A stretch of 36,702 nucleotides of DNA from a virus. The stretch is taken from IMG/VR virus record IMGVR_UViG_3300028415_000011, positions 1 through 36,702 of that record. One strand, given 5' to 3'. Positions within the stretch are counted from its first letter, which is position 1; the number at the start of each line of letters is the position of its first letter. The position numbers were made by a program, and so were the translations under genes. The notes under the pieces were generated by a model. The model made no database searches. It was not told the DNA's origin and saw only the letters and a program-made list of their open reading frames with translations. This document shows positions 3,516 through 35,664 of this stretch, one piece after another.

Positions 3516-4658
3516 ATGAATTATATTTTATTAGGTAGTCAGCATTTTCTATCAATGATAAGTGCGACAATATTAGTTCCATTATTAACGGGTATGCCTG
3601 TTAGTGTTGCTTTGTTTACCTCTGGGGTAGGTACAATAATCTTTCATAAGCTAACTAAGGATAAAGTGCCTGCTTATTTAGGTAGCAGTTTTGCTTTTAT
3701 AGCCCCTTTAGCTTACATAGTGGCTAATCAGGGGATAAGGAGTGCAGCAGGTGGTGTTATTTTTGCAGGTTTGATTTATTTAATATTTAGCAGATTCATA
3801 AAAAAGATAAATTTAAAAAGATATTTACCTCCTGTAGTGGTTGCACCTATCATAATGTTAATAGGTCTATCGTTAGCACCTGTAGCAATAGAACAAGCAC
3901 AGACAAATATACTAATATCAGTGTTTACTTTAGTAGTAGCAATAGCAATAGCAATTTTTGCTAAAGGTTTCTTTAAGTTGGTGCCTGTGATGGGAGGAAT
4001 AATAGCAGGTTATTTTCTAGCAGTTATGTTGGGGGCAGTTGATTTTAGTCCGATAGCATCAGCAGAGATCATTGGTTTCCCTAAATTCTTTTTACCTAAC
4101 TTTAATTTAACAGCAATTAGTGTGATAGCACCAGTTGCTTTAGTGACTATGGTAGAGCATATAGGAGATATATTAGCAATAGAAAACACAATTAAAGAAG
4201 ATATAGTAGGAGAGGTTGGTTTGAACAAAACTTTACAGGGGGATGGAGTTGCAACAATGTTTGCAGGACTATTAGGAGGAGTTCCTAACACTACTTATGG
4301 TGAAAACACAGCAGTCTTAGCTTTAACTAAAGTATATGATGCTAGAGTGGTTAAGATAGGGGCTATTATTGCTATAATTTTAAGTTTCCTACCTAAAGCA
4401 AGTGCTTTTATCTTCACAGTACCAGAAGCAGTGTTGGGTGGAATAAGCATTTTATTATTCGGAATGATCACAGCAATAGGTTTAAGGACATTAGTAGAGA
4501 GCAACACAGACTTAAATGAACAGAGAAATTTAATAATAATCAGTGTTATTTTAGTAATAGGTTTAGGTGGGGCAGTCTTTAATGTGGGATTTGAAGTGTC
4601 AGAGTTAGCAGCAGCAACAATAATTGGTATTTTACTTAATATAGTTTTACCTGAATAA
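3516..4658 (+). CDS. NCS2 family uracil/xanthine permease (380 aa)
   Basis: ATG 3516 is preceded by AAAGGGAG. The protein is almost entirely hydrophobic, with 12-14 predicted membrane segments, and carries signatures of the nucleobase:cation symporter-2 (UraA-type) family: QHFLSMISATILVPLL near the N-terminus, the VPAYLGSSFAF segment at 51-61, MVEHIGD at 212-218 and the GVPNTTYGENT signature at 255-265. By alignment to UraA, E214 and E263 are the likely substrate-binding acidic residues. It would import uracil or xanthine with protons across the host membrane. At 380 residues it is a little shorter than typical members (about 400-430) but has both ends of the fold. It lies between terS and terL, where a transporter has no structural role, so it is best seen as a cargo gene acquired from a bacterium, perhaps supplying bases for phage DNA synthesis. 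Confidence 0.9.
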   Translation: MNYILLGSQHFLSMISATILVPLLTGMPVSVALFTSGVGTIIFHKLTKDKVPAYLGSSFAFIAPLAYIVANQGIRSAAGGVIFAGLIYLIFSRFIKKINLKRYLPPVVVAPIIMLIGLSLAPVAIEQAQTNILISVFTLVVAIAIAIFAKGFFKLVPVMGGIIAGYFLAVMLGAVDFSPIASAEIIGFPKFFLPNFNLTAISVIAPVALVTMVEHIGDILAIENTIKEDIVGEVGLNKTLQGDGVATMFAGLLGGVPNTTYGENTAVLALTKVYDARVVKIGAIIAIILSFLPKASAFIFTVPEAVLGGISILLFGMITAIGLRTLVESNTDLNEQRNLIIISVILVIGLGGAVFNVGFEVSELAAATIIGILLNIVLPE

Positions 4659-4664
4659 GTTTAT

Positions 4665-4738
4665 GAGAGCATACGATAATAGTAATCGACCAAACTCCAA
4701 ATTTGGTTATGGGGGTGCAATTCCCTCTGCTCTTGCCA
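4665..4738 (+). tRNA. tRNA-Trp (anticodon CCA), divergent D and T loops
   Basis: A 74-nt cloverleaf with encoded CCA. The acceptor GAGAGCA pairs with TGCTCTT (G1-U72 wobble). The D stem is CGAT/ATCG with loop AATAGTA. The anticodon stem is CCAAA/TTTGG with loop CTCCAAA, giving anticodon CCA. The variable loop is TTAT. The T stem is GGGGG/CCCTC with loop TGCAATT. Discriminator base G73 agrees with bacterial tRNA-Trp identity. It starts 6 nt after the permease stop and is probably cut from that transcript. The D loop lacks the usual GG pair and the T loop has G where U55 is nearly universal, so the elbow contact must be altered. Confidence 0.85.
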
Positions 4739-10488: not shown

Positions 10489-12162
10489 GTGCCTTTTGGT
10501 GATTTCACAGATTTTGAAGATTATGTAGAAACAATAATGGAAGAACAAGATGTGACAGAAGAAGAAGCACAGGCAATCTGTGCAGAGACACATTATGAAG
10601 AAACAGGAGAATATCCGTCAGAAAAAGGAGGTGAAGATGTGGCTTTACTTGAAAAAGAATGTGTGGAGTTAGTTCTTTCCGAATTAGAATATAAAGTTTG
10701 GGATGAATTTGACAAATACTCATCTGACATGAATGAAGATGATTTTGATACCTATAAAGTGTCAACTTTTATGAATGTTGGAGAAGATAATAAAAACTAT
10801 ATTGTTTTTGTTAATATGGTAACTGATAAACTATATCGTGCAGAGTTTGAAGTTGGTGAGGATACTGAAATCACATTTGGGGAGAAAGAGGAAGTTGAAG
10901 AAGGGTACATCCTTAAAAATATTGAAGATGTAACTCTAAAACAGGTAGTCAATAAAGAAGTTGATCCTGTATCTGAGATATTCATGATCAAGAATATTAC
11001 AGGTAAATATCCTCAGATTAATGTGAGTAAGAAAAGCAAAGAGATTAGGGGCACTATCTTAAAGCAGGAAGATGAAGAAGAAAAAATGATTGTTTCTGGT
11101 GCTGTATTAATCCCAGATGAGGAAGATACAGATGGTGATGTAATCAGCAAAGAGAAGATAGAAGAAGTTGCTCACGAATGGATGCTAAATTATAGAAATG
11201 TTGATTTACAGCATACTCTTAATAATGTAGCTTATCCAGTAGAGAGTTATCTACTTAAAGAAACTAAAGAAGTTACTAGTCTTGATGGGCAAGTAATGGA
11301 GTTGCCTGCTGGTACATGGATGGTATCTGTTAAAGTTGATGATGATGATACATGGGAAGCAATTAAAGATGGTAGAATGAGAGGGTTCTCTATCATGGGA
11401 GTACCTAAAGAAAACATAGGCAGCGTAATTAAGTCTGAATCTGCTTTAAAAAGAACAACTTTAGCTGATATTGAAGATTCTGGTAGAGATTGGACAGTTC
11501 CATTTTTTAGTATTGTTGATGAGCCTGCTGTTCCTAAAGGTAGGATTGTTAGTATAAAAAGCAAAGAGAAAGAAGATAAAGGTTTTTGGCAGACACTCAA
11601 AAGTATTTTTATTACTGATAAAAGTGAAGAAGATACTGAAATCGAGGAAGAAGAAGTAAATACAGAGAACTCTGAAAAAGGGGGTGCAGATATGGATAAA
11701 GAGCAATTAACTGAAATTCTCAAAGAATTTAAAGAAGAACTACTTTCTGATGTAGATGAAAAACTGGAATCAGTTAAGTCTGAGGAGGTTGAAGAAGAAG
11801 TAGAAAAAGAGGTAGAAGAAGAAGTCGAGGAAGTAGAGGAAGAAGAAGTAGAAAAATCAGAAGAAAAAGAAAAAGAGGGAGAAGTAGAGAAAGCAGAAGA
11901 AGAAACTGAGGAAGAAGATGAGGAAGAAGAAGTTGAGGAAGAAGATGAAACTCTTAAAGAATTAAGATCCGAACTTACAGAGTTAAGAGAAGAAAACTCC
12001 TCCCTTAAAGAGTTTAAAACAGAGGTTGAGAAGAAATTTGTAACTAGAAAGAGTAACCAACCAGAAGGACAGGATGACGAAGAAAAAACACAGAGAACAG
12101 AGAAATCAAGACAAGCAGAATTAGGCAGAGATGCTTTTGGTAGAAAAAGAAGTAGAAAATAA
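10489..12162 (+). CDS. XkdF-like prohead protease fused to acidic scaffold (557 aa)
   Basis: GTG 10489 follows AAGGAGGTG (10474-10482). Three parts are visible. Residues 1-45 are a small helical motif with two Cys (DFEDYVETIMEEQ...AICAETHYEETG), seen at the N-terminus of several phage head proteins. Residues about 190-350 match the XkdF/S78-type prohead protease: VSGAVLIPDEEDTDGDVI, LQHTL and GRMRGFSIMGV, with His and Ser as candidate catalytic residues. Residues about 400-557 are a highly acidic Glu-rich coiled coil typical of scaffolding proteins. Two internal in-frame starts have excellent ribosome sites, GTG 10639 and ATG 11692. The second would yield a separate 156-aa scaffold, like lambda Nu3 within gpC. 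The major capsid gene follows. Confidence 0.85.
   Translation: MPFGDFTDFEDYVETIMEEQDVTEEEAQAICAETHYEETGEYPSEKGGEDVALLEKECVELVLSELEYKVWDEFDKYSSDMNEDDFDTYKVSTFMNVGEDNKNYIVFVNMVTDKLYRAEFEVGEDTEITFGEKEEVEEGYILKNIEDVTLKQVVNKEVDPVSEIFMIKNITGKYPQINVSKKSKEIRGTILKQEDEEEKMIVSGAVLIPDEEDTDGDVISKEKIEEVAHEWMLNYRNVDLQHTLNNVAYPVESYLLKETKEVTSLDGQVMELPAGTWMVSVKVDDDDTWEAIKDGRMRGFSIMGVPKENIGSVIKSESALKRTTLADIEDSGRDWTVPFFSIVDEPAVPKGRIVSIKSKEKEDKGFWQTLKSIFITDKSEEDTEIEEEEVNTENSEKGGADMDKEQLTEILKEFKEELLSDVDEKLESVKSEEVEEEVEKEVEEEVEEVEEEEVEKSEEKEKEGEVEKAEEETEEEDEEEEVEEEDETLKELRSELTELREENSSLKEFKTEVEKKFVTRKSNQPEGQDDEEKTQRTEKSRQAELGRDAFGRKRSRK
11692..12162 (+). CDS. Internal-start scaffolding protein (156 aa), nested in the protease gene
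   Basis: ATG 11692 is in frame with the 557-aa protein (its residue 402) and is preceded by AAAGGGGGTG (11677-11686) at 5 nt. The start falls exactly at the boundary between the protease part and the coiled coil (MDKEQLTEILKEFKEELL). The product would be a free scaffold of Glu-rich heptads with a basic C-terminal tail (GRKRSRK) suited to binding the capsid protein. Nested scaffold genes are well known in lambda-type protease genes. Expression here is inferred from the ribosome site and domain boundary. Confidence 0.6.
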   Translation: MDKEQLTEILKEFKEELLSDVDEKLESVKSEEVEEEVEKEVEEEVEEVEEEEVEKSEEKEKEGEVEKAEEETEEEDEEEEVEEEDETLKELRSELTELREENSSLKEFKTEVEKKFVTRKSNQPEGQDDEEKTQRTEKSRQAELGRDAFGRKRSRK

Positions 12163-17116: not shown

Positions 17117-20100
17117 ATGTCCAGAGCAGTCGATATTTTAATAAATGGAGTTGATAACTTCTCAAAGACAGCAGAAGATGCTGAAAAATCAGGACAGCAG
17201 TTGGCTAAAGAACTGGATAGTGCCTTTAATAAAGTAGCACTAGCAGTCTTAGGGGCAACTACTGCCCTTGAAGTTATGAACAGAGAACAAAGAGGAATGA
17301 GAGAAACCTTAGAAAGAACTGCTTATTTTTTAGATACAAATTCAGAAAGTTTAAGAGAGTTAGCAGTTAATATTGCTAATGTTACTAGACCAACCAGTGA
17401 TGTTGTAAAAGGTTTTAGAGCATTAATGCAGAGAGGTATTCAAAATGAAGAACATCTGGCAAGACTTGCTATTCAGTATGACACTTTAGCAGATGCTATG
17501 GGTGAAAATATGTTACCTGTTCTTGAGCAGGTAATCCCTATGTTTGCTGCTTTTGGTGACAATGCTGGTGGTGTTGAGAGATATGGAGATAAATTAGTAC
17601 ATACTTTTGAAGCAACCTCTCTTGAATTAGCAGATTTTAACAGAGTAATGAGAAGATCAAGAATATATTTAACCAATATGGGCTTAACTATGGATGATGC
17701 TATAGCAGTGCTATATGGTTTAGGTGAAAGTTCTAAGAACTCTGCTCAGGCTATGTACACTCTACAGAGAGCAGCAAGAAGGGCAGATGGGGATTTTGAT
17801 AAGTTCCTAGAGATAGCAGGATTAACCAAAGAAGAATTAGGCGAATATAAAGAGATACTAGAAGACACAGAAGGAACAATGAATGATTTTGCCGATATTC
17901 ATGCAGACAGCTATACCCCAATACAAAAATTATTGAGTATTGTAGAAAGATTAAAATTAAGATATGGAGAAACAATAGAGACTTTAGGATCATTAATGAC
18001 AGTGATTGGTGTAGTTGTTGGGGGTATATGGGTTTTATCAACATTAACTAACAGTCTAGCAACTAATGTGTGGTTAGCACATAAAGCCTTTGTAGCTTTA
18101 GCAGGTCTTATGTCAACTTCTTTAGCAGTTGTTCTTGGGTGGACAGCAGGTATTATTGCTCTAGTAGGAGGATTCACTTATCTTGCTGAAACAATGACTG
18201 ATGATATAGCAGTAATGGAAAGAAGTATGGAGAGATTAGAAGGTACAATAGATTCAGTCTCTAAAATAATAGCTGGTGAATTAGGGGACAGTTGGGAAAG
18301 TATAGCAGATGTGCCCGAACAAGTTATTGATCAATGGGAAGATAACATTAAAAAAGGTTTAGATATTGATGTGGATATAAGAGAAAATTTTGATACTTTT
18401 GAGAGTTTAAAATCATTTTTAGAGCAGGGTGTTGCTGATTTAGAAATAGAGATAATGAACACTGATGATGTTGGAGGAGTTATATCACAAGCAATCACCA
18501 GTGGTTTAGAAAAAGTTAAACCTGCTGTATATAATGCAATTAATGGTTTAGAGGAATGGTTGTTTGATTCCTTAGAAGCTATGGATTTTGAAGCCTTTGA
18601 TGGAAAAATGGGTGAGTTGCTAGATGGGTTAGGCATAGAAACAACCCTGACTGTTGGGTTGACAGTGGAAGATATAGACAAAATATTATCAGAGGTAGAG
18701 AGAAAACTAAAAAATGTAGATGAGCAACTTGAAGCAGGTCTGTTAGGTAGTCAATTTGAGGTTCTTCAAGGATATGCAGAAGCAACTAAGTCTGGATTAG
18801 AGGAACTACTTAATGGTGGTTTAGAACCTACTTCTGAGGAAGTGCAGAAACTATTTAATGATTTTGTTGAGTTCACTTCTCAAATGAATAATGGAGCAGA
18901 AAAAGCAGAATATATGAACGAAGCATTTATTGGTTTATTAGATAGTGGTATTACACCCAATACTAAAGGGTATGATAAACTAAAACAAGCTGTAATAGCT
19001 GCTAACAATGCTATAGATAATTCAGAACCAGACGAACAGATTAAAAAAAGAGATGAGATAATCAAAGCATACCAACAAGAAATCCAAAATATAGAAATGT
19101 TAGCAGATAAAAAAGAAGAATTAGGGCAGGAATATGATGAAGAAGGCGAAAAACTAAAAGTCTATGAAAATGCCCTTAAACAGTTAATGCCTTTATATGG
19201 TGTGTCTGAACAGCAAATAGAGAAACTAATGAGTTCAATAGAAGAATTAACAGAGGAAGAAGAAACTCTAGTACAATCAATGCAGAAAGCTAGAACAGAA
19301 ATAGCACTGCTAACTAAACTAGATAATGAACTAGGTGATAGTTTAGATTTAACAAGTGATAGAACTTCAACAGCACAAAGTGCTATAGATAAGTTAACAG
19401 AAGCATGGATTGCTGGTGATATAACTATAGAAGAATTTAAAAAAGAGGTTAAATACTTTAATGATATACTAGATTCTCCTAAGGTAGATAGTTATGCTGA
19501 TAGCATTGAAGAATTAAATACTCAACTTAGAAACATTAACGAAATGGAAAAAGTTGGAGTATTAGATGAAGCAGAAGCAGATCAAAGAAGATTAAATAAT
19601 GTAAATAGACAAATGGAATTAATGGTAAATAACCAGGAGCATATAAATGAAGAAACAGGAAAAGTAACACAGGAATTTAAAAATTTATTATTAGAAGCAG
19701 AACTTTTAGAAGAAAGTTTGGGTAAGTCAGAGGGTCAAACAAAAGAAATGGAACATGGTTGGCGTAGAGTGTTAGATGTAATAAGTAATAATGTAAGTGC
19801 CGTTGGTGCTTTTAGAGATATGATGGCAAACATGAATGATGTAGATTTTAGTCTTAGTGACATAAAACTACCAGAAGGAATGGATTTAGGGATTAATTTT
19901 GGAGGAATAGGCGAAAAGGTGGGAAATGTGTTCTCTGATATTAGTAGTAAATTAGGTTCTTTTATTGGTGAAGCTGGTGTGTTTCTAAGTGTTATAATGC
20001 CTATGCTTGAACAATCAAAGCATTTTGACAAGGTAATGGGAACATTAGCCAGGATAATGGAGCCAGTTGTAGAGATCTTTGGTCTTATCTTAGAAGCATT

Positions 20101-20731
20101 GTACCCTTATATTAGAGTAATAGAAATGGTGTTAGTACCACTTTTAAAATTACAAGCTATGATACTTGAAACATTAATCTTGCCCGTTTTCAAAGCATTA
20201 TTCCCTGTTATTAAGTTATTTGGCGTTGTTATTCTAAGTGTGGGAGAACTTATTGCTAATGTAGTAGGTATCTTTTCTCATAGAGCACGAGAGGTAGCAG
20301 ATGAAATGGGCAAGGCAAGGCGAGATTTAATGGATTTATCATGGGATGACCTACAAGATGAACTTAAAGACACAGAAAGTGGAATGAGTAAAGTTAATGA
20401 AGAATTACATAATATCCCTAGTGGCTTTAAATTGAACTTAGAAAGATTTAGAGCAACAGCAGAAGAAATACCAGAGAGATTGAGTTCTAGTAGCACTGTG
20501 AGCAGTTTAAGTTCTAGTGATGCAAGTAGCAATAGAGTATCTGCCCAGAGTATTCAATCTGAAACTAATGATAACAGGCAAACTAACCATTATTACTATT
20601 ATACATTTGAAGATGTGGACATAATGTCTGATGATCCAGAAGAAGTTTGGAGAGAATTAAAGAGAATAATGAAAAGAGAAAACTATGAAAAGACAGGAAC
20701 AACATTAAGACGAGATAATAGATATGCTTAA
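17117..20731 (+). CDS. Tail tape measure protein (1204 aa)
   Basis: ATG 17117 follows AAAGGGGGC. It is the longest ORF, directly after the chaperones. The N-terminal 260 residues resemble the TMP core domain (FRALMQRGIQNEEHLARL and MRRSRIYLTNMGLTMDDAI regions). Hydrophobic segments at about 288-355 (TVIGVVVGGIWVLSTL, TAGIIALVGGFTYL) and about 1000-1065 would enter the host membrane. Long helical coiled-coil stretches (about 540-880) act as the ruler. By the usual rule of roughly 1.5 angstrom per residue, the tail would be near 180 nm. The C-terminus has a Ser-rich region and a short NHYYYYTFEDVD segment typical of phage TMP ends. Confidence 0.95.
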   Translation: MSRAVDILINGVDNFSKTAEDAEKSGQQLAKELDSAFNKVALAVLGATTALEVMNREQRGMRETLERTAYFLDTNSESLRELAVNIANVTRPTSDVVKGFRALMQRGIQNEEHLARLAIQYDTLADAMGENMLPVLEQVIPMFAAFGDNAGGVERYGDKLVHTFEATSLELADFNRVMRRSRIYLTNMGLTMDDAIAVLYGLGESSKNSAQAMYTLQRAARRADGDFDKFLEIAGLTKEELGEYKEILEDTEGTMNDFADIHADSYTPIQKLLSIVERLKLRYGETIETLGSLMTVIGVVVGGIWVLSTLTNSLATNVWLAHKAFVALAGLMSTSLAVVLGWTAGIIALVGGFTYLAETMTDDIAVMERSMERLEGTIDSVSKIIAGELGDSWESIADVPEQVIDQWEDNIKKGLDIDVDIRENFDTFESLKSFLEQGVADLEIEIMNTDDVGGVISQAITSGLEKVKPAVYNAINGLEEWLFDSLEAMDFEAFDGKMGELLDGLGIETTLTVGLTVEDIDKILSEVERKLKNVDEQLEAGLLGSQFEVLQGYAEATKSGLEELLNGGLEPTSEEVQKLFNDFVEFTSQMNNGAEKAEYMNEAFIGLLDSGITPNTKGYDKLKQAVIAANNAIDNSEPDEQIKKRDEIIKAYQQEIQNIEMLADKKEELGQEYDEEGEKLKVYENALKQLMPLYGVSEQQIEKLMSSIEELTEEEETLVQSMQKARTEIALLTKLDNELGDSLDLTSDRTSTAQSAIDKLTEAWIAGDITIEEFKKEVKYFNDILDSPKVDSYADSIEELNTQLRNINEMEKVGVLDEAEADQRRLNNVNRQMELMVNNQEHINEETGKVTQEFKNLLLEAELLEESLGKSEGQTKEMEHGWRRVLDVISNNVSAVGAFRDMMANMNDVDFSLSDIKLPEGMDLGINFGGIGEKVGNVFSDISSKLGSFIGEAGVFLSVIMPMLEQSKHFDKVMGTLARIMEPVVEIFGLILEALYPYIRVIEMVLVPLLKLQAMILETLILPVFKALFPVIKLFGVVILSVGELIANVVGIFSHRAREVADEMGKARRDLMDLSWDDLQDELKDTESGMSKVNEELHNIPSGFKLNLERFRATAEEIPERLSSSSTVSSLSSSDASSNRVSAQSIQSETNDNRQTNHYYYYTFEDVDIMSDDPEEVWRELKRIMKRENYEKTGTTLRRDNRYA

Positions 20732-21075: not shown

Positions 21076-21546
21076 ATGCTTAATATTAATACAATAGATA
21101 TATCAGCAACAGTTGCAAGTTTATTAGAAGAAGAAGGAGACGGGTTAACCTATTCAGAAGATATGCCTATTAATTTTGTTTTTAGTTTAGAGTACGATTC
21201 TATTTTATATACTACTAATTATACTATTTATAATTCTAGTAGTGCTCTACAAGATGGGGTTAATATTTATTATACAGATCATACAGGCACACAACAATCA
21301 GATATAACAGATGTAAATGGGGAAGCCAGTTTAGATAATTTCAGAGAAGGAGAAACCTATATTGTTAAATTTAATTTAAACGGGGATATTACTAGAGTTG
21401 AACAAGTTTATAATGTGGGAGATTTAACTGATGGGATTGCTAATGCAACAATCACATTAATTGAAGGTGGAAGTAATAAAGAAGAAACAGAAACAATGAA
21501 TTTAGATTATATATTTAACTTAGAATACGAGGAGGTAGTTATTTAA
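21076..21546 (+). CDS. Ig-like tail module protein (156 aa)
   Basis: ATG 21076 follows AAAGGTGGTG. The centre (about 40-100) is a carboxypeptidase-regulatory/Ig-like module: a lead-in strand FSLEYDSILYTTNYTI, then ALQDGVNIYYTDHTG, DVNGEASLDNFREGETYIVKF. This is nearly the same design as a module in the 1050-aa protein (GCNIYYTNHRND and PSGQATLSDFRADENYTVYF). After TLIEGG it ends with FNLEYEEVVI, a second copy of the LEY lead-in without its module. Such domains mediate adhesion to sugars or protein surfaces on virions. The stop overlaps the next start by one base. Confidence 0.65.
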   Translation: MLNINTIDISATVASLLEEEGDGLTYSEDMPINFVFSLEYDSILYTTNYTIYNSSSALQDGVNIYYTDHTGTQQSDITDVNGEASLDNFREGETYIVKFNLNGDITRVEQVYNVGDLTDGIANATITLIEGGSNKEETETMNLDYIFNLEYEEVVI

Positions 21547-22946
21547 TGAAGATAAAACAAAAAGTAGGAATATCAGGTAGAGTTGATATAGAAAAGTATA
21601 ATACTAGAACAGGTGAACTTGTAGAAAAAAGAGAAGGCAAGAACATGCTCCTTAATAGTTACCTAAATGGGTATTTTGAGGAGGGGTACCCACTATTAAG
21701 TTCAGATGTGTTTAGTGCTTGTATGTTAGGGGATAGCAATACAGCAGTAGCAAGAACTCAAACAGGGGTACAGGGATCAACACTTGCTAGTAAAGCATCT
21801 AAAGCTGTGGACACTAGTTTGATTGCTCTTATGAATCGGGGTTGGGACACTAAAAATACTTTCACAGGCCATGGTGGTGATGTTTATTCAGTAAACTTCC
21901 ACCCTGACCCAAACAGTAACCTAGCAATAAGTGGAAGTTATGATGACACAGCAAAAATATTTGAATATGACACCACAGCAGGAACAACAACAGAAATGGC
22001 AACTTTCACAGGTCATAATACACGTGTTTATTCAGCAAACTTCCACCCTGACCCAAACAGTAACCTAGCAATAAGTGGAAGTTTTGATGACACAGTAAAA
22101 ATATTTGAATATGACACCACAGCAGGAACAACAACAGAAGTGGCAACTTTCACAGGTCATAATAGTTATGTTTCTTCAGTAAACTTCCACCCTGACCCAA
22201 ACAGTAACCTAGCAATAAGTGGAAGTTGGGATAACACAGTAAAAATATTTGAAATCCTAACTGATAAAAAGAACACTATATCTGCAAACGGTGAGTGGGT
22301 ATTTGAAGCAGGAGAGGGTACAGGAACAATAAGAGAAATATTTTTACAAGCAGATTTTAGTGGTTATCCCCTTTATGGCTCTGACACACCAGTAGCAAGA
22401 AAAGTAATATCACCAGAGATAGTCAAAGATGAATACCACGAAATAATACTAAAATGGACAATAGAGATAACAAAACCAGACTTAGGTTGGTCAGGCACCT
22501 TATCAGATGTTGGTATGAGTGGGGAAAATATCTCATATGAATTGACATTGGGAAACCAATCCTTAGCACAAAACACAGGATTTATAAAACCCCTATCTTG
22601 GAATATTAACCAAAATAATACTGCTGATGTATTCCTAAGAACCTTTGAGATGAATACAGAACCAACAAGTATAGAAGCAACAAAATTAACAGGAGATTAT
22701 TATGAAACACAGATAGACAGAGTTAGCACTTACCAAATACTAAAAACATATACAGCTTCACAATATAAGATAGAGTACCGAGTGACACTAGATGTAGATG
22801 ATAGCAACACAGCTAATATTGGAGGACTAAGGTTAGAGAATGATGGGACAGAATCCTCATTAAGAGTGCTATTTGATCCTAAATTACCTAAGACAGACAC
22901 TTATAGATTACATTTTGACTTTGAATATCAACTAAACCCCAGCTAA
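21546..22946 (+). CDS. Tail protein with three WD40 repeats (466 aa)
   Basis: ATG 21546 follows GAGGAGG and overlaps the previous stop by one base. Residues 1-105 and 240-466 look like one phage tail protein (MKIKQKVGISGRVDIEKYN..., GEWVFEAGEGTGTIREIFL, ILKWTIEITKPD). Between them are three tandem 48-residue WD40 repeats at about 106-236, each with FTGH, FHPDPNSNLAISGS and a [Y/F/W]D[D/N]T[A/V]KIFE end, the WD dipeptide being replaced by FE. The DNA of the repeats is almost identical (144-nt unit from 21861). A closed propeller usually needs more blades, so the three may combine with other subunits or extend differently. Position in the tail-tip block suggests a surface-exposed binding function. 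Confidence 0.75.
   Translation: MKIKQKVGISGRVDIEKYNTRTGELVEKREGKNMLLNSYLNGYFEEGYPLLSSDVFSACMLGDSNTAVARTQTGVQGSTLASKASKAVDTSLIALMNRGWDTKNTFTGHGGDVYSVNFHPDPNSNLAISGSYDDTAKIFEYDTTAGTTTEMATFTGHNTRVYSANFHPDPNSNLAISGSFDDTVKIFEYDTTAGTTTEVATFTGHNSYVSSVNFHPDPNSNLAISGSWDNTVKIFEILTDKKNTISANGEWVFEAGEGTGTIREIFLQADFSGYPLYGSDTPVARKVISPEIVKDEYHEIILKWTIEITKPDLGWSGTLSDVGMSGENISYELTLGNQSLAQNTGFIKPLSWNINQNNTADVFLRTFEMNTEPTSIEATKLTGDYYETQIDRVSTYQILKTYTASQYKIEYRVTLDVDDSNTANIGGLRLENDGTESSLRVLFDPKLPKTDTYRLHFDFEYQLNPS
21861..22253 (+). repeat. Tandem 144-nt repeats encoding WD40 units (2.7 copies)
   Basis: Copies start at 21861, 22005 and 22149; the third stops after 105 nt. The core from AACTTCCACC to GTGGAAGT is identical in all three. 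Differences fall mainly at the codons after TGH (GGD, NTR, NSY) and at Y/F/W in the GSxD turn, plus a few neighbouring sites. The flanks also echo each other (ACTAAAAATACT before, AAAAAGAACACT after). Confidence 0.9.
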
Positions 22947-26510: not shown

Positions 26511-27319
26511 TTATAACAATAAATGATTTTTTAGAAGTCCCAATATCAAGAGAGAATATTGAACCTGACCCTGTGTATTACTTAGATGAAATAAAAATGT
26601 TTGCAGGCAATACTAAATTAGTGCAAAGCAATAGAATTAAAAAACAAAGATGGAATATGACCACAGAAAGTTTAAAACCAGAGCAGGCATTTTCTGTGGC
26701 TTCTATTCTTGCTAATTTAGGTGACTATTGGAAGTTTAATGGTGATTACTTTAGTGCAAAAGGACAGGAAGCAACATTTGAAACTGCTGTAACTAGTCCT
26801 GCTGAACCTATCATTATAACAGGTGCTTTTGGTTCTTCTGTTAGATTAAATGATTATAATATGATATTAAGAGTATTTTTAGAATCTAATTACTTAGTTA
26901 GTTTTTATAGGCAGCAAACCAGTTTTGATGATAAGTTTTATCATTATGTTGTTGATGATTTTGATAGAGTTTGGATAGATGGTGTGCTGGCAGATGAAAC
27001 AACTATAGAAAATCATGGAATTAGAGATTGGTTAATAGTTAAACCTTTAGATAATGCGATATATTTTACTAAAGAAGCAGCAGAGATAGATGAGGTTTAT
27101 GTTATGAGTGGTGTTATGTATGATGCAGACATATTAGACCCTGCTAATATATATCAAGCAGGAGAAATGCCGATAACAGGCTCAACAATCAAGGTAGCAG
27201 GTGATTTCCTTGATACAGAAGATTATATTATCTGTGAATGTAGAGTTGACCAAAACGAATATAGAGATATAGGAAAATCAATAGATGTCGAATTTACATT
27301 GGAGGAAGATATATTATGA
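26507..27319 (+). CDS. Hypothetical tail-tip protein (270 aa)
   Basis: ATG 26507 overlaps the lectin-half gene by 4 nt, and the stop overlaps the next gene's start by 4 nt, so the three genes are translationally coupled. The protein is soluble and beta-rich, with segments such as KKQRWNMTTESLKPEQAFSV (here about 45-64), DDFDRVWIDGVLADETT and IVKPLDNAIYFTKEA. The LKPEQAF stretch is reminiscent of distal tail or baseplate proteins that follow tape measures. I cannot name the family with confidence. The context indicates a baseplate or tail-tip structural component. Confidence 0.6.
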   Translation: MIITINDFLEVPISRENIEPDPVYYLDEIKMFAGNTKLVQSNRIKKQRWNMTTESLKPEQAFSVASILANLGDYWKFNGDYFSAKGQEATFETAVTSPAEPIIITGAFGSSVRLNDYNMILRVFLESNYLVSFYRQQTSFDDKFYHYVVDDFDRVWIDGVLADETTIENHGIRDWLIVKPLDNAIYFTKEAAEIDEVYVMSGVMYDADILDPANIYQAGEMPITGSTIKVAGDFLDTEDYIICECRVDQNEYRDIGKSIDVEFTLEEDIL

Positions 27320-29229
27320 GAAGTTTAACAACAAGAGAAGTTGATTTACTCCAATCGTCAGAATATAGAGCACATTTTAGAGTTTATTTTGAAGATGCAG
27401 ACGGTAATATGGAAGAAATAACTAATTATGAGGGAAGAAATTGGGTAGAGAGTATAGAGATAAGCACAGACATAGATGCAGAAGGCAAGTCATTCACTTT
27501 TAACATAAAAAGAAACAGAAACAAAAGATCATTTTCTCCTTTAATGAAGGGCAGTCCTTTTAATGTAGTTAATGAGTTGTATAAGCCTAAAATATTTATG
27601 GGTAGAAAGTTCTTAATAGAGATAGCTTTAACAGGGTTAAATGGAACCCCTGAACCTGAATGGTGGAAAGTGTTTGAAAGAGGTTATCTAAATAGAGTTC
27701 AATTTCATAGTGATCCTATGGTTATTCAGGGCAGTTGTGATTCTTCTGATTTATTAAGAGCATATATAAAAACAGAAAGACAGTATGGTTCAGAAACGGG
27801 ACAACCAGTAGAAAATGCTATGCAACAAATATTAGATGATAATGGTAAATCAGAGTATGATCTAGTAGTGCCTACATCACCTAATTGGAACATTTACCCA
27901 TATATACAAAGAAAAGAAAAAGTGTATGCTGCATTGAGAGAATTAGCCCATCAAATAGGTTGGGAAGTCAAACCTAGATTTAATAATGGCACAGGAGACA
28001 TAGAATTAATGCTTTATGAGCCAGAAAGAGACCCTAATGATTTTGTTTGGTCATTCACTCCTGGTGATTATACAGATGTCAGAAGATTAGAGATGGGGAT
28101 AGAAAACATAAGAAACTATGTGAGAGTTGTTTACAGTGATATTAATGTAGATGACGAAGATGGTAACCCAGGAAAAAGACAAGCAATAGAAAGATTTGAT
28201 CAAGATTCAATAGATGCTTTTGGTGAAATATATATGGAGATCAGTGAATCGAGTGTTAGTAATATAAATACAGCAACAGAAGCTATTACATTAGCAGAGA
28301 ATAGTTTACATGACCTTAAAGAACCAAAAGCAGATCAACAAATAGAGACAGGTTTTTTCTATCCTATCCAACTTAATGACTTTGTTGAGTTTCAACCGAA
28401 TGGTGTTCATTTTGATAGAATACAAAAATTTGGGGTTGTTGGGTATAGGCACAATATTAAAATAGAAGAAGGTAAACTGAGGACAGTTTTAACTACTAAA
28501 GGCAGACCTAATATGTCAGAAACAGGTTTCCCTGTAGGTATGACAGCATCATGGTTAGAAAGAGAAGCATTACCTGCTATAGCAAAAATCAATAAAGAAA
28601 CAACACCAATTCAACCACAAGATATAATAACACATTCCTCTATTAAAGGCATTACAGTGACTTGGGCAGCACAGGAAAATAGAGAAGTAGAAGGATATAA
28701 TGTTTACTGTAGTAATACATCAGCTTTCACTGCTAATAATGATAGGAGAGTAGCGAGAGGGTCTATTAATCAATTCAATATTGCAACATACTACAATGAG
28801 ACCACAAAACAAATAGAAAATATGGTAGCAGGTGAAATCTACTATATTAAATTAAGAGGTTACAATGAAGATGGTCAATTAGGAGATGTTTCTATAGAGG
28901 TGTCAGAAACAGCAGGGCAGACAGGTGAAGCATCTATTGCTGATGGTAGCATAACTGAGCCTAAATTAGCAAACGGAGCAGCAACAGAAGATAAGATAGG
29001 CACTGGTTCTGTAACAGAAGATAAGATAGGCACTGGTTCTGTAACAGAAGATAAGATAGGCACTGGTTCTGTAACAGAAACTAAGTTGGGAAATGGGTCT
29101 GTTTCCCAAAATAAGGTACAAGATAATGCTATTAATAGTAGTAAGACATTTGGTGCAACTGGCACATTTACAACCTCTGATGGGAAAACAATAACAGTTA
29201 CAAATGGATTAATTACAGACATAACTTAA
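27316..29229 (+). CDS. Tail hub/tail-associated protein with FnIII and fibre repeats (637 aa)
   Basis: ATG 27316 overlaps the previous stop (ATGA). Residues about 1-420 look like the hub-like minor tail protein of siphophages: YVNRVQF-type beta, VYAALRELAHQIGWEVKPRF (about 195-214), RNYVRVVYSDINVDDE (about 269-284) and an AITLAENSLHDL helix. Residues about 435-530 are a fibronectin type III domain (KGITVTWAAQENREVEGYNVY, here shortened, and YYIKLRGYNEDG). The end is a fibre-like stretch of 10-residue repeats TEDKIGTGSV and a terminal beta segment (KTITVTNGLITDIT). It closes the tail block. Likely role: central tip joining tube to fibre and host surface. Confidence 0.75.
   Translation: MRSLTTREVDLLQSSEYRAHFRVYFEDADGNMEEITNYEGRNWVESIEISTDIDAEGKSFTFNIKRNRNKRSFSPLMKGSPFNVVNELYKPKIFMGRKFLIEIALTGLNGTPEPEWWKVFERGYLNRVQFHSDPMVIQGSCDSSDLLRAYIKTERQYGSETGQPVENAMQQILDDNGKSEYDLVVPTSPNWNIYPYIQRKEKVYAALRELAHQIGWEVKPRFNNGTGDIELMLYEPERDPNDFVWSFTPGDYTDVRRLEMGIENIRNYVRVVYSDINVDDEDGNPGKRQAIERFDQDSIDAFGEIYMEISESSVSNINTATEAITLAENSLHDLKEPKADQQIETGFFYPIQLNDFVEFQPNGVHFDRIQKFGVVGYRHNIKIEEGKLRTVLTTKGRPNMSETGFPVGMTASWLEREALPAIAKINKETTPIQPQDIITHSSIKGITVTWAAQENREVEGYNVYCSNTSAFTANNDRRVARGSINQFNIATYYNETTKQIENMVAGEIYYIKLRGYNEDGQLGDVSIEVSETAGQTGEASIADGSITEPKLANGAATEDKIGTGSVTEDKIGTGSVTEDKIGTGSVTETKLGNGSVSQNKVQDNAINSSKTFGATGTFTTSDGKTITVTNGLITDIT
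28981..29100 (+). repeat. 30-nt tandem repeats encoding TEDKIGTGSV
   Basis: Three essentially identical 30-nt units start at 28981, 29011 and 29041 (ACAGAAGATAAGATAGGCAC and a GGTTCTGTA tail), followed by a degenerate fourth at 29071 (TETKLGNGSV). They encode decapeptide repeats of a trimeric fibre-like shaft, and copy number could change by slippage. Confidence 0.9.
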
Positions 29230-29249
29230 TAGAGGAGGTGAGATTAACA

Positions 29250-30257
29250 GTGAGAGAGATAGAGAACTTGTTAACTCACTATGCAAATAGAATTGCCGAG
29301 CACCCTGTAGCAAAAACAATAGGGTCTGGGTTAGTTATTTTAGGAGATTATATGTTTGGTGGATTTGGTGAACCTTTACAAATACTAGTATTATTAATGT
29401 TAATTGATTTAATTACAGGAATAGGTGCAGGGCTGACTAAAGAAAGAGAACTGAGAGAGCAGGGCATTTGCCCCAGTGCAGTAGTTACCAGCAGAACAAT
29501 GAGAAATGGAATTTGGAAATTCATAGAATATTTAATAGCTGTTTTTATTGCTAATGTGATTAGCTTGCAATTTGGAGTTGGTTCAGTAAGAGAATTTGCA
29601 ATAATGTGGCTATCGTTAACAGAACTTAAATCAATACATGAAAATTTTTATAAAATGGGGTTTGATATACCTTTAACTCAACAATTATTTGAGTGGAGTG
29701 ATGATTATTTGGATAAACAGAATAAGCGCAATAAGAAAAACAGGAAAGAAGAAGATAAAAAAAGATATTATAGGAGGGATAAAATGAAAATAAAAGATGT
29801 TAGAGATAAACTGCCTAAGAATGGTGAATACCCTAAAAGAAACATAGAGGACATAACCCACATAGACATACACCACTCAGCGAGCTTAACCAGCGATTAC
29901 AGGGATTTTGAAATAGTAGAGGGGTTTGCTAAGGGTCACATAAATAAAGGCTGGCAAGGACTGGGTTATCACTATGTGGTGCCACCTAAAGATGCCATAT
30001 TTAAAACAGGTTATGCAGGAGAGATGAGGTGGTCTGTGGGAGGAAACAACTCTTACACAATATCAATAATGGTTATTGGTAATTTTGATAAAGAAGAAAT
30101 AAGCGAAGAACAATACCAAAAAGCGTTAAAGTTAGCCAGAGCATTAATGAAAGCATATAATGTGCCCAAAGAAAATGTTATGGGGCATAATGAGTACCCT
30201 AATCAAGCAACCCTCTGTCCTGGTATAGATATGGATAAGTTTAGAAGTGATCTATAA
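29250..30257 (+). CDS. Holin-endolysin fusion: phage holin plus amidase (335 aa)
   Basis: GTG 29250 lies 9 nt after GAGGAGGTG; GTG 29238 overlaps that ribosome site and is rejected. Residues about 1-165 are a holin of the Phage_holin_4 (toxin secretion/lysis) type, with membrane segments around PLQILVLLMLIDLITGIGAG and FIEYLIAVFIANVISL, and a charged tail NKRNKKNRKEEDKKRYY. Residues 179-335 are an N-acetylmuramoyl-L-alanine amidase of the PGRP type, with Zn-ligand motifs HIDIHHSAS and GHNEYPNQATLCPG. The two are in one uninterrupted frame. An internal ATG at 29784 with AGGAGG should also give free amidase. Separate holin and endolysin genes are the norm, so the fusion is odd. The junction looks like a lost stop codon between two adjacent genes. 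Confidence 0.85.
   Translation: MREIENLLTHYANRIAEHPVAKTIGSGLVILGDYMFGGFGEPLQILVLLMLIDLITGIGAGLTKERELREQGICPSAVVTSRTMRNGIWKFIEYLIAVFIANVISLQFGVGSVREFAIMWLSLTELKSIHENFYKMGFDIPLTQQLFEWSDDYLDKQNKRNKKNRKEEDKKRYYRRDKMKIKDVRDKLPKNGEYPKRNIEDITHIDIHHSASLTSDYRDFEIVEGFAKGHINKGWQGLGYHYVVPPKDAIFKTGYAGEMRWSVGGNNSYTISIMVIGNFDKEEISEEQYQKALKLARALMKAYNVPKENVMGHNEYPNQATLCPGIDMDKFRSDL
29784..30257 (+). CDS. Internal-start amidase endolysin (157 aa)
   Basis: ATG 29784 is in frame with the fusion (its codon 179) and sits 6 nt after AGGAGG (29772-29777), a better site than most in the window. The product MKIKDVRDKLPKNG... is a complete amidase domain with candidate Zn ligands in HIDIHHSAS, GHNEY and TLCPG and no signal peptide. 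It would hydrolyse the amide between muramic acid and the stem peptide after holin permeabilises the membrane. Confidence 0.75.
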   Translation: MKIKDVRDKLPKNGEYPKRNIEDITHIDIHHSASLTSDYRDFEIVEGFAKGHINKGWQGLGYHYVVPPKDAIFKTGYAGEMRWSVGGNNSYTISIMVIGNFDKEEISEEQYQKALKLARALMKAYNVPKENVMGHNEYPNQATLCPGIDMDKFRSDL

Positions 30258-31483: not shown

Positions 31484-34297
31484 TTGTTGCAACATGAATT
31501 TGAAGTAGATGAGTACATAGAAGGTGCAAAATATGATCCAAAAACTAAGCAATACACTCTAGCAATACACTTATATGGTCTGTATTGCTATGAGAAAGAA
31601 GTAGAGCAATACACTTCTTTTACTGATAAGAATATAAAACTAGATGAAGATATAGTAATCTATTTTGATTATGATGAGGATTTAATAGAAAAGGTAAAAG
31701 AAATACCAGGAAGGAAGTGGGATAACACAGAAAAGAGATGGGAACTTAAACCTAGTCTTAGCAATATTCAGAATGTTGTTAAATTTGCTAGAGATAATGA
31801 ATTTAATGTCCATAAAGAAGTATATGCTTTAAAAGATAAGTTAGAGAAGGAAGTAGAAAAGTCTAAAGCAATAGATTCTAATATAGAGATAGATGGTTTA
31901 AACTTAAAACTAAGACCTTTCCAGAAAGCAGGGGTTGACTATGCGATAAATAAAAAGAGAACTTTTATAGCAGACCAGGTTGGGTTGGGGAAAGATCAAC
32001 CTTTAGATGCTAAACTACTGACACCTAATGGTTGGGTAACTATGGGGGAGATACAAGTAGGCGATTATGTGATAGGTAGTGATGGAAAACCTACAAAAGT
32101 AATAGGTGTTTACCCACAAGGGCTAAATGATGTATATGAAGTAATTTTTAATGATGGGAGTTCCACTGAATGTGGAAAACATCACCTTTGGAATGTTAAC
32201 ACTTCAGATAGAAATGCTCAAAACAGACCTTATCAAACTAAAGAGTTGATTGAGATTAAAGATGGTTTATTTAAAAGTGATAATCAATCAAAAAGATTTA
32301 TCCCATTAGTTGCTCCGATTGAAATGGAAAAGAAAGACCTGCCAATCGACCCCTATGTATTAGGTGTCTTATTAGGAGATGGGGAGCTATCAATAAAGTC
32401 AAGAGTTAAATTATCAAATACTAACCAACAATTGATAAATATATTTAAAAAAAGGTTACCCAAAGGCATTAAATTAAGACATGAACAAAAAGGTGAGTAT
32501 AGTATCACAGACATGAAAAACCATAACAATAGGATTTTAGATTCCCTAAGAGAACTTAATTTACAAGGTTGCAAGTCTTATCAGAAATTTATACCAAAAA
32601 TATACCTACAAGGCTCTATTAAACAAAGACAGGCATTATTACAAGGTTTATTAGACACAGATGGATATGCCTTTAAAGGGAGGAATCTTTTTTATAGTTC
32701 TTCTAAAAGAATGTGTAAACAAGTATTACAATTAATTCAATCGTTAGGGGGTGTTGGTAGATCTAAGGTGAAGAACAAGAAACCAAAATACACATATAAA
32801 GGAGAGGTGAGAATTGGGAGACCTGCATATCAAGTATCAGCTATTAAAGTTCCAAAAAGTATTTCTTTAAACAAGCTAACTAAAAATAAAAAAAGACTAG
32901 ATGATAAAAGGTTTGAACCTAGCAGAGCAATGAAGGAGGTCAATTATATAGGTAAAAAGCAAACACAGTGCATTTCTGTAAATGCAGATGATGGTTTGTA
33001 TGTTACAGATGATCACATAGTAACACACAACACTGTGCAGGCTATAGTGACAATTAATCAACTAAATGCTTACCCTGCTCTTATTATTTGTCCTGCTTTT
33101 TTGAAAATCAACTGGAAAGAAGAATATAAAAAGTGGTTAGAAGATGATAAAGAGATTGTAATAATAGATGGAACAAAAAATAAGAAGTTGCCTAAAGCTG
33201 ATATTTATATTATTAACTATTATATTATTAAAGATAATCTTACATTATTAAAGAAACTTAATTTTAGCAGTTTGATATGTGATGAATCACATAATCTTAA
33301 AGGATACAAAAGTCAAAGGACTAAGGCAGTTAAGAAGTTAGTTAAAGCCTTAGATATACCAGTTAGACTGCTGCTATCTGCCACACCTATTAAAAATAAA
33401 CCTAAAGAGTATATACCACAATTAGAGATACTTGATAGATTAGAAGATTTAGGCGGCTTTTGGAACTTCACAGGCAGATATTGTGATAGAAAGAAAACCA
33501 ATTTTGGTATGGACATTAATGGTGCTAGTAATCTTGAAGAATTGAACCAGAGATTAAGAGAGGTTGGTTTCATAAGAAGAAAGAAATCACAGGTTTTAAA
33601 AGAATTACCTCCTGTTAATAGGTCTAGGGTTTGGATAGAGATAGACAACAGAAGCAGTTATGAAGAAGCAGAGAGGGATATATTTAACTGGTTAAAGAAG
33701 AATGAAGGGTTAAAGAAAGCACTTAAAGCAAGAGGGGCAGAGGTAATGGTTAAGATAGCAAAACTACGGAAACTCTCTGCACAGGGGAAAAAGAAAAATG
33801 CTTATAAATGGATAAATGAGTTCCTGGAAACAGGGGAAAAACTGATTTTATTTGCTCACCATATAGATATAACAGAAAGCATAGCTGCTGATTTTAACTG
33901 CTTAAAAATAACAGGTAACACAACTGATGAAGAAAAGGATCAAGCAGTTAAGCAGTTTCAAAATGACCCAAATAAAAAATTAATAGTTATCTCAATACAG
34001 GCAGGAAGTGAAGGAATAACACTAACAGAAGCACAGAGTGTAGCTTTTTTAGAGTTTGGTTGGACACCTGCTGAACATGATCAAGCAGAAGGTAGAGCTT
34101 ATGGTAGATTAAATGATATTCATGGGTTAAATAGTTATTATTTAGTTGGTAAAGATACAATAGATGAGAGTATTTTGAATATTATAGATAATAAAAGAGA
34201 GATAGTAGATAAAGCAACAGATGGAGAAATAAACGAGGAAAATAAGGAAGGTATGTTACGAGAATCACTTAACTATCTTAAAAATAAGTATAATTAA
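31484..34297 (+). CDS. SNF2 family helicase (SMARCAL1-like), interrupted by an intein (937 aa precursor)
   Basis: TTG 31484 lies 7 nt after AAGGAG (31471-31476). The mature protein would be 591 residues after removal of the 346-residue intein. Residues about 45-115 resemble a HARP-type N-terminal region. Superfamily 2 ATPase motifs are in order: RPFQKAGVDYA (Q motif), DQVGLGK plus T after splicing (Walker A), DESHNLK (motif II, near 33281), LLLSATPIKN (III), ISIQAGSEGITLTEA (V) and EHDQAEGRAYGRL (VI). Such SNF2 proteins translocate on DNA and remodel forks or remove bound proteins. In phages they probably assist replication or recombination. The intein sits in Walker A, so ATPase activity depends on splicing. 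Confidence 0.95.
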   Translation: MLQHEFEVDEYIEGAKYDPKTKQYTLAIHLYGLYCYEKEVEQYTSFTDKNIKLDEDIVIYFDYDEDLIEKVKEIPGRKWDNTEKRWELKPSLSNIQNVVKFARDNEFNVHKEVYALKDKLEKEVEKSKAIDSNIEIDGLNLKLRPFQKAGVDYAINKKRTFIADQVGLGKDQPLDAKLLTPNGWVTMGEIQVGDYVIGSDGKPTKVIGVYPQGLNDVYEVIFNDGSSTECGKHHLWNVNTSDRNAQNRPYQTKELIEIKDGLFKSDNQSKRFIPLVAPIEMEKKDLPIDPYVLGVLLGDGELSIKSRVKLSNTNQQLINIFKKRLPKGIKLRHEQKGEYSITDMKNHNNRILDSLRELNLQGCKSYQKFIPKIYLQGSIKQRQALLQGLLDTDGYAFKGRNLFYSSSKRMCKQVLQLIQSLGGVGRSKVKNKKPKYTYKGEVRIGRPAYQVSAIKVPKSISLNKLTKNKKRLDDKRFEPSRAMKEVNYIGKKQTQCISVNADDGLYVTDDHIVTHNTVQAIVTINQLNAYPALIICPAFLKINWKEEYKKWLEDDKEIVIIDGTKNKKLPKADIYIINYYIIKDNLTLLKKLNFSSLICDESHNLKGYKSQRTKAVKKLVKALDIPVRLLLSATPIKNKPKEYIPQLEILDRLEDLGGFWNFTGRYCDRKKTNFGMDINGASNLEELNQRLREVGFIRRKKSQVLKELPPVNRSRVWIEIDNRSSYEEAERDIFNWLKKNEGLKKALKARGAEVMVKIAKLRKLSAQGKKKNAYKWINEFLETGEKLILFAHHIDITESIAADFNCLKITGNTTDEEKDQAVKQFQNDPNKKLIVISIQAGSEGITLTEAQSVAFLEFGWTPAEHDQAEGRAYGRLNDIHGLNSYYLVGKDTIDESILNIIDNKREIVDKATDGEINEENKEGMLRESLNYLKNKYN
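31994..33031 (+). mobile_element. Class 3 intein with LAGLIDADG homing endonuclease (346 aa)
   Basis: Removing these codons restores an exact Walker A GLGKT. The intein begins DQPLDAKLLTPNGW, lacking the Cys/Ser/Ala1 of class 1 and 2, and ends VTHN before Thr+1. It shows the class 3 signature: Trp66 in block B (HHLW), Cys326 in block F (QTQCISV) and Thr at +1. In that class, the block F Cys performs the first attack. Two dodecapeptides, YVLGVLLGDGEL (about 121-132, D129) and LLQGLLDTDGYA (about 215-226, D223), form an apparently intact homing endonuclease. The frame is uninterrupted, so splicing and homing may both be active. Confidence 0.9.
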
Positions 34298-35324: not shown

Positions 35325-35411
35325 CAGTAAGGATAGAGGGTTTTGGTTAATTAAGGTGATTTAAAACTTAATTTAACCATTAATTAAAGATATAACCCTC
35401 TATCATTACTG
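35325..35411 (+). repeat. Large imperfect inverted repeat (18-bp arms)
   Basis: CAGTAAGGATAGAGGGTT (35325-35342) and AACCCTCTATCATTACTG (35394-35411) are inverted complements with one mismatch. Inside, GGTTAATTAAG (35345-35355) pairs with CTTAATTTAACC (35367-35378) with one bulge. The structure could extrude as a cruciform or form an RNA hairpin downstream of the 69-aa gene; it lacks a T-run, so is not a typical terminator. Confidence 0.8.
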
Positions 35412-35432
35412 TCATACAGGCGATAACGGGGG

Positions 35433-35460
35433 ATTCATTAAATCATTTTACGAATCATTT
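35433..35460 (+). repeat. Iteron copy 1 (diverged)
   Basis: ATTCATTAAAT C ATTTTACGAAT (35433-35455) is an 11-bp palindrome about a central C. It shares the ATTTTACGAATCATTT end with copy 2. Upstream ACAGGCGATAACGG is a degenerate form of the ACAGGGATAAGAGG box of copies 2 and 3. Confidence 0.8.
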
Positions 35461-35506
35461 ATGTTTTTATATCAATTTAAGGCGCATCCCCTCTCATAAG
35501 CACTGT

Positions 35507-35554
35507 TATGACAGGGATAAGAGGTCATTCGTTAAATCATTTTACGAATCATTT
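35507..35554 (+). repeat. Iteron copy 2
   Basis: Begins TATGACAGGGATAAGAGGTC, followed by the palindrome ATTCGTTAAAT C ATTTTACGAAT (35527-35549). The first 45 nt (35507-35551) are identical to copy 3. Centre-to-centre distance from copy 1 is 94 nt. Confidence 0.9.
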
Positions 35555-35619
35555 CAAAAGATAAAGATTAATCGCCTTTTTTAACAGATTTAAAGAATTT
35601 TTTAATTTATAATCGTTGA

Positions 35620-35664
35620 TATGACAGGGATAAGAGGTCATTCGTTAAATCATTTTACGAATCA
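35620..35664 (+). repeat. Iteron copy 3
   Basis: Exact 45-nt repeat of 35507-35551, with the palindrome at 35640-35662. Centre-to-centre distance from copy 2 is 113 nt. Confidence 0.9.

Follow-up and report, generated by a model that had tools for sequence, protein, structure and literature searches.

A gene in the tail module of the virus record IMGVR_UViG_3300028415_000011 (IMG/VR; this stretch of 36.7 kb, or 36,702 nucleotides, was analysed as a whole and is referred to as the window) probably encodes a host-contact tail fibre carrying inserted WD40 blades that are shuffled, diversified on their binding face and selected for attachment to a variable host. Tandem, near-identical blades would here have been inserted into the host-contact tail-fibre protein of a tailed phage, where they would make all or part of a β-propeller that keeps the blade scaffold uniform while residues of the top face are diversified, namely those encoded by the three codons that follow TGH, by the codon next to the subsequent valine and by the codons flanking the aspartate of GSxD. 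The most likely source of the variants would be unequal recombination or gene conversion between units, by which blades are gained, lost and shuffled, together with point mutation; selection for attachment to a host surface that itself varies would then retain them. We infer that the propeller closes (within one chain with more blades, or as a trimer), that it binds a receptor and that the host imposes the selection, and the pattern suggests a fast-changing host-attachment surface.

Alignment identifies the array as inserted within a tail-fibre protein, since the flanking parts without the repeats align end to end to the family phrog_4176: when the repeats were excised and the flanks joined, residues 3–322 of 327 matched positions 2–303 of 309 of the family profile (E 2e-12). 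The match of the intact protein to the family is limited to its N-terminal part. The N-terminal module aligned to proteins of a Xanthomonas phage and of halovirus HHTV-1, and homologues without the repeats, which the preliminary description of this DNA had proposed as a means of placing the insertion, were found among them: in contrast to the present protein, the two relatives examined (Xanthomonas phage 10KY502B gene 4 and HHTV-1 gp39, the latter a weaker and partial match) have no counterpart of the WD40 array. The alignment places the insertion point directly after GWDTKN (GWRRKT in the homologue) and before the strand GEWVFEAGEGTGTIRE. The flanking motifs DTKNT and DKKNT, which had been taken for duplicated ends of the insertion, match at 10 of 15 bases (67%) in an A-rich genome; because the homologues align their own GWRRKT to it, GWDTKN is tail-protein sequence and no duplicated end, and the idea was abandoned.

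Table 1 Features of the tail-fibre gene and its WD40 array (positions in the window).
Feature	Position	Strand	Basis or remark
Tail-fibre protein with WD40 insertion, 466 aa	21546..22946	+	Open reading frame; phrog_4176 flanks; position in tail module
N-terminal tail-fibre module, aa 1–104	21546..21857	+	phrog_4176 2–86, alone E 4e-7
WD40 unit 1 (variable residues GGD / Y)	21858..22001	+	Repeat finding, Pfam
Hypervariable codons 5–7 after TGH	Unit 1 21873..21881; equivalents 22017–22025, 22161–22169	+	
Hypervariable codon 27 (GSxD)	Unit 1 21939..21941; equivalents 22083–22085, 22227–22229	+	
WD40 unit 2 (variable residues NTR / F)	22002..22145	+	Repeat finding, Pfam
WD40 unit 3, partial, 108 nt, without strand d (variable residues NSY / W)	22146..22253	+	
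C-terminal tail-fibre part, aa 237–466, resumes the domain interrupted by the array	22254..22943	+	

The array (positions 21858–22253) comprises 396 nt, or 2.75 times 144 nt, that is, two full units followed by 108 nt. Tandem Repeats Finder recovered the same period of 144 (93% matches, score 664), and the Pfam WD40 family (PF00400) matched three stretches with 90.1 bits against a cut-off of 27 (E 6e-26). These results bear out the earlier assignment of WD40 units to positions 21849–22265 within a phage tail protein; of the three 48-residue units described there, however, the third is partial. Units of the window are 92–93% identical in DNA and about 83–89% identical in protein, and outside the variable codons the 48-residue units are nearly identical, silent sites included, in keeping with the suggestion that the copies expanded recently or have been homogenised. 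The codon differences reported after TGH and at GSxD proved real as well. Highly repetitive propellers are defined by a pairwise blade identity above 60% (PMC9218822), which the array exceeds; relative to HiC repeats, which have more than 85% internal identity across at least 100 aa (PMC4986451), the unit identities of the 132-aa array fall on both sides of 85% because of the variable codons. The PDB entries closest in sequence are WD40 proteins of the highly repetitive kind, led by 2YMU (5e-63). The phage array shares with these bacterial propellers (PMC9218822) an apparent recent amplification from a single blade, but it sits in a viral tail fibre, has fewer units and carries Phe instead of the Trp of the WD motif.

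Near-identical viruses carry other arrays. We compared the window with contigs L002 and L004 (metagenome 3300028374) and L003 and L005 (metagenome 3300011185), which represent the same virus at 99.2–99.7% identity, the rest of the genome, outside the array, being 99.2–99.9% identical to the window. Their arrays differ from that of the window, with at least four units in L002 and at least three in L003, and do not conform to the fixed, diverged repeats in all related phages that had been named as the opposite outcome; no more than three arrays are known, and two of these are incomplete because the L002 and L003 contigs end inside the repeats. In a position-matched comparison, with units anchored by the unique flanks, the last unit of L002 differed from that of the window at 12 of 108 nt against 3 of 696 in its flank (Fisher 6e-9), and the first unit of L003 at 9 of 108 nt against 1 of 315 (Fisher 3e-5). 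Boundary units therefore differ at 8–11% of sites and the flanks of the same gene at less than 0.5%, a density of differences about 25-fold higher in the repeats. Among the seven full units, variation touches 11 of 35 codons and alters the amino acid at 10, namely codons 5 (G/N), 6 (G/T/S/D/H), 7 (D/R/Y/N), 9 (Y/S), 27 (Y/F/W/S) and 29 (D/N), as well as 11, 13, 26 and 31; the changes thus sit on the codons that follow TGH, at the V-x-S next to them and around GSxD.

AlphaFold modelled the full protein poorly as a whole, with a mean pLDDT of 46, the repeats reaching about 70–83, and the isolated repeat domain with a mean pLDDT of 64 and a pTM of 0.65, with the same strand pattern. DSSP of both models gives, with moderate confidence, strands a-b-c-d in each unit and a third unit without d, so the repeats are predicted to form a four-strand-per-unit meander, the blade-like fold whose absence had been proposed as grounds for rejecting the WD40 reading. 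Foldseek placed the repeats of the full-length model on WD40 structures (E 2e-8, rmsd ~2 Å, ~135 columns); the isolated repeat model gave no match below E 0.04, and a structure search of viral models returned low-similarity propellers only. The array starts within a degenerate strand d and stops after strand c, which would correspond to the arrangement that closes WD40 propeller rings.

Three blades alone cannot close a ring. Threefold symmetry is usual for tail fibres, so a trimeric assembly would suit the protein. Laboratory constructs termed WRAP, which like the phage array have three WD40 blades per chain, close as nine-blade trimers (PDB 6R5Z), and PkwA closes as dimers (PMC6805158); for the phage protein, a natural tail fibre whose assembly is predicted by analogy, trimer closure into nine blades is plausible. 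Since the assemblies break at the array and leave the true copy number uncertain, a ring closed within one chain by a larger number of blades is as likely. It may even be that the real array has six to nine blades, as is usual for WD40 propellers, and was collapsed or truncated by short-read assembly, an account of unit number only and one compatible with a face-diversified tail fibre. The broken contigs and the additional unit or units in L002 speak for such an effect, which we nevertheless hold to be somewhat doubtful, as no two of the three window units are the same and a single uninterrupted contig carries them together with both unique flanks.

The preliminary description had missed that the variable codons coincide with positions on the binding face of the WD40 repeats in fungal HET proteins. 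In Podospora het-D, het-E and het-R, diversifying selection acts on codons 7, 9, 25 and 27, which flank the conserved codons 8 and 26 and all map to the propeller's top face; both the number of repeats and the sequence of the units change by recombination (PMC1805685, PMC2873952). The phage equivalents, set via a two-residue loop difference in the 2YMU alignment, are codons 7, 9, 27 and 29, flanking V8 and D28, and all four belong to the 10 codons, out of 35, that vary in amino acid (hypergeometric P 0.004). The phage protein and HET-E, HET-D and HET-R (Podospora anserina, fungal NLRs) thus both have near-identical WD40 units that appear to be shuffled and to change in number, and both vary at four binding-face codons flanking two conserved ones. 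The carriers differ, however, being a NACHT/HET NLR in the fungus and a tail fibre with few units in the phage, and in the phage array codons 5 and 6 are also strongly variable. As Pfam gave no match to a NACHT or NB-ARC domain in the phage protein, the likeness, on the sequence evidence, is one of working principle and not of membership in the HET/NLR proteins.

The contrast between nonsynonymous and synonymous changes was rejected as an indicator of positive selection. Among the units, pN is 0.085 and pS 0.036, in a small sample; counted by codon, the repeats show 13 nonsynonymous to 2 synonymous changes, no different from the 78 to 13 in shared genes outside the repeats. Because the nonsynonymous excess is genome-wide, this contrast does not demonstrate positive selection, and the argument for selection therefore rests on the density and placement of the changes. 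The same lack of a special signal in the repeats favours a structural spacer, that is, a complete or fragmentary propeller in a tail protein, amplified recently and neutral, in which the units differ through relaxed drift and slippage; propellers continuously amplify anew from single blades, and many decay (PMC9218822), and the array has three units only. We nonetheless regard a neutral spacer as unlikely, given that the differences concentrate on codons of the binding face, all four HET positions among them, and that the remainder of each unit has stayed nearly uniform even where changes would be silent.

WD40 domains are rare in isolated phages. Neither the whole protein nor the repeats by themselves, the latter compared with 50,697 records, found a homologue among INPHARED phages; a generic WD40 query, used as a control, found 12 phage records, one of them strongly (Salicola phage SCTP-2), so the search itself works. 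The earlier remark that WD40 is unusual in virions agrees with this, other β-propellers being known in the receptor-binding proteins phi11 Gp45, PRD1 P2 and PhiKZ gp131C (PMC4901313). These resemble the present case, as proposed, in placing a propeller in a phage host-recognition protein, but they are single-chain propellers of five or seven blades, and near-identical WD40 repeats with hypervariable codons are not described in that work. Repetitive WD40-like propeller repeats also occur, on different carriers, in SCTP-2 gp442 and in a 'WD40 repeat protein' of podovirus ctYwJ313, both long and highly repetitive proteins (L030 1–6810 and L031 4606–6750, respectively).

The gene lies 3' of the tape measure gene (17117–20731) and two small genes, and is followed by a gene for a 1050-aa protein with carboxypeptidase-regulatory-like and weak Ig-like domains and, further 3', by genes for a tail-fibre-like protein (27316–29229) and a holin-amidase fusion (29238–30257). 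WD40 domains are general protein-binding platforms, and the protein might act inside the cell, as a scaffold for host factors or a decoy of them, rather than as an adhesin of the virion, but a carrier that belongs to a tail-fibre family and sits in the tail module, near tape measure and tail-fibre genes, makes this very improbable. Although the head and proximal tail genes resemble those of Methanobacterium virus Drs3 (24–38%), the presence of the amidase gene argues for a peptidoglycan-bearing, and hence bacterial, host. The N-terminus, the C-terminus and the 1050-aa protein encoded downstream, each used as a query, matched the same virus only, and no prophage relative carrying the tail-fibre/WD40 protein was found in the genome contigs searched; portal relatives at 35–38% (a Bacteroidota MAG, Geobacillus and a Clostridia MAG) lack phrog_4176.

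As to how the variants arise, the units share parts in new combinations, which points to reshuffling: there are four-gamete pairs among them, the second units of the L002 end and of L003 are identical, and AGTTAT, codons 6–7 of window unit 3, recurs in a unit with a different codon 5. The window and seven IMG/VR records from this or a related virus, which may be incomplete, yielded neither a reverse transcriptase (PF00078) nor a template repeat or second copy of the repeat outside the gene; a diversity-generating retroelement acting in cis was therefore discarded, and shuffling of units appears to be the better explanation. That such an element rewrites the loop codons by adenine-directed mutagenesis from a template repeat is very improbable, even though the variable codons are often NNT and A occurs at 10 of the 16 variable nucleotide sites, because several variable sites lack A or would have to change from bases other than A (ACA and TGG codons).

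Known routes to variation of phage adhesins include point mutation, inversion or recombination of fibre modules and diversity-generating retroelements. If tail-fibre blades are indeed shuffled and selected for host binding, a WD40 face varied by the shuffling of repeats would add another route, and host attachment in phages would appear to have converged with non-self recognition in fungi, because the same residues are varied in the phage and fungal repeats. More tentatively, the phage might follow the strategy of the fungal NLRs throughout, with WD40 blades shuffled and point-diversified, a tail-fibre receptor face that changes without a retroelement, blade number and identity that vary within one population, and closure across three chains. 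Such a protein would directly test whether incomplete WD40 arrays close across chains in nature, as laboratory fragments do (PMC6805158).

Several other features of the genome were noted. The genome-wide nonsynonymous excess is dense in the tape measure gene (20 nonsynonymous and 0 synonymous differences, with a cluster at 18386–18654) and in the holin-amidase gene (11 and 0 relative to near-identical relatives). In the head protease gene, a tandem region that is acidic and rich in Glu (11784–11950) is longer by 24 nt in L005 and by 3 nt in L010, and a tandem 30-nt repeat in the downstream tail-fibre gene (28983–29102) is one unit shorter in L004. The phage also carries a xanthine/uracil permease gene (3516–4658; PF00860, 8e-90) and a tRNA-Trp (cca) gene (4665–4738). 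A SNF2-type helicase gene (31484–34297) is apparently split by an intein, with Hint and LAGLIDADG matches, and terminase families match the same stretch; at 35402–35664, a 56-nt repeat occurs three times in an apparently non-coding stretch.
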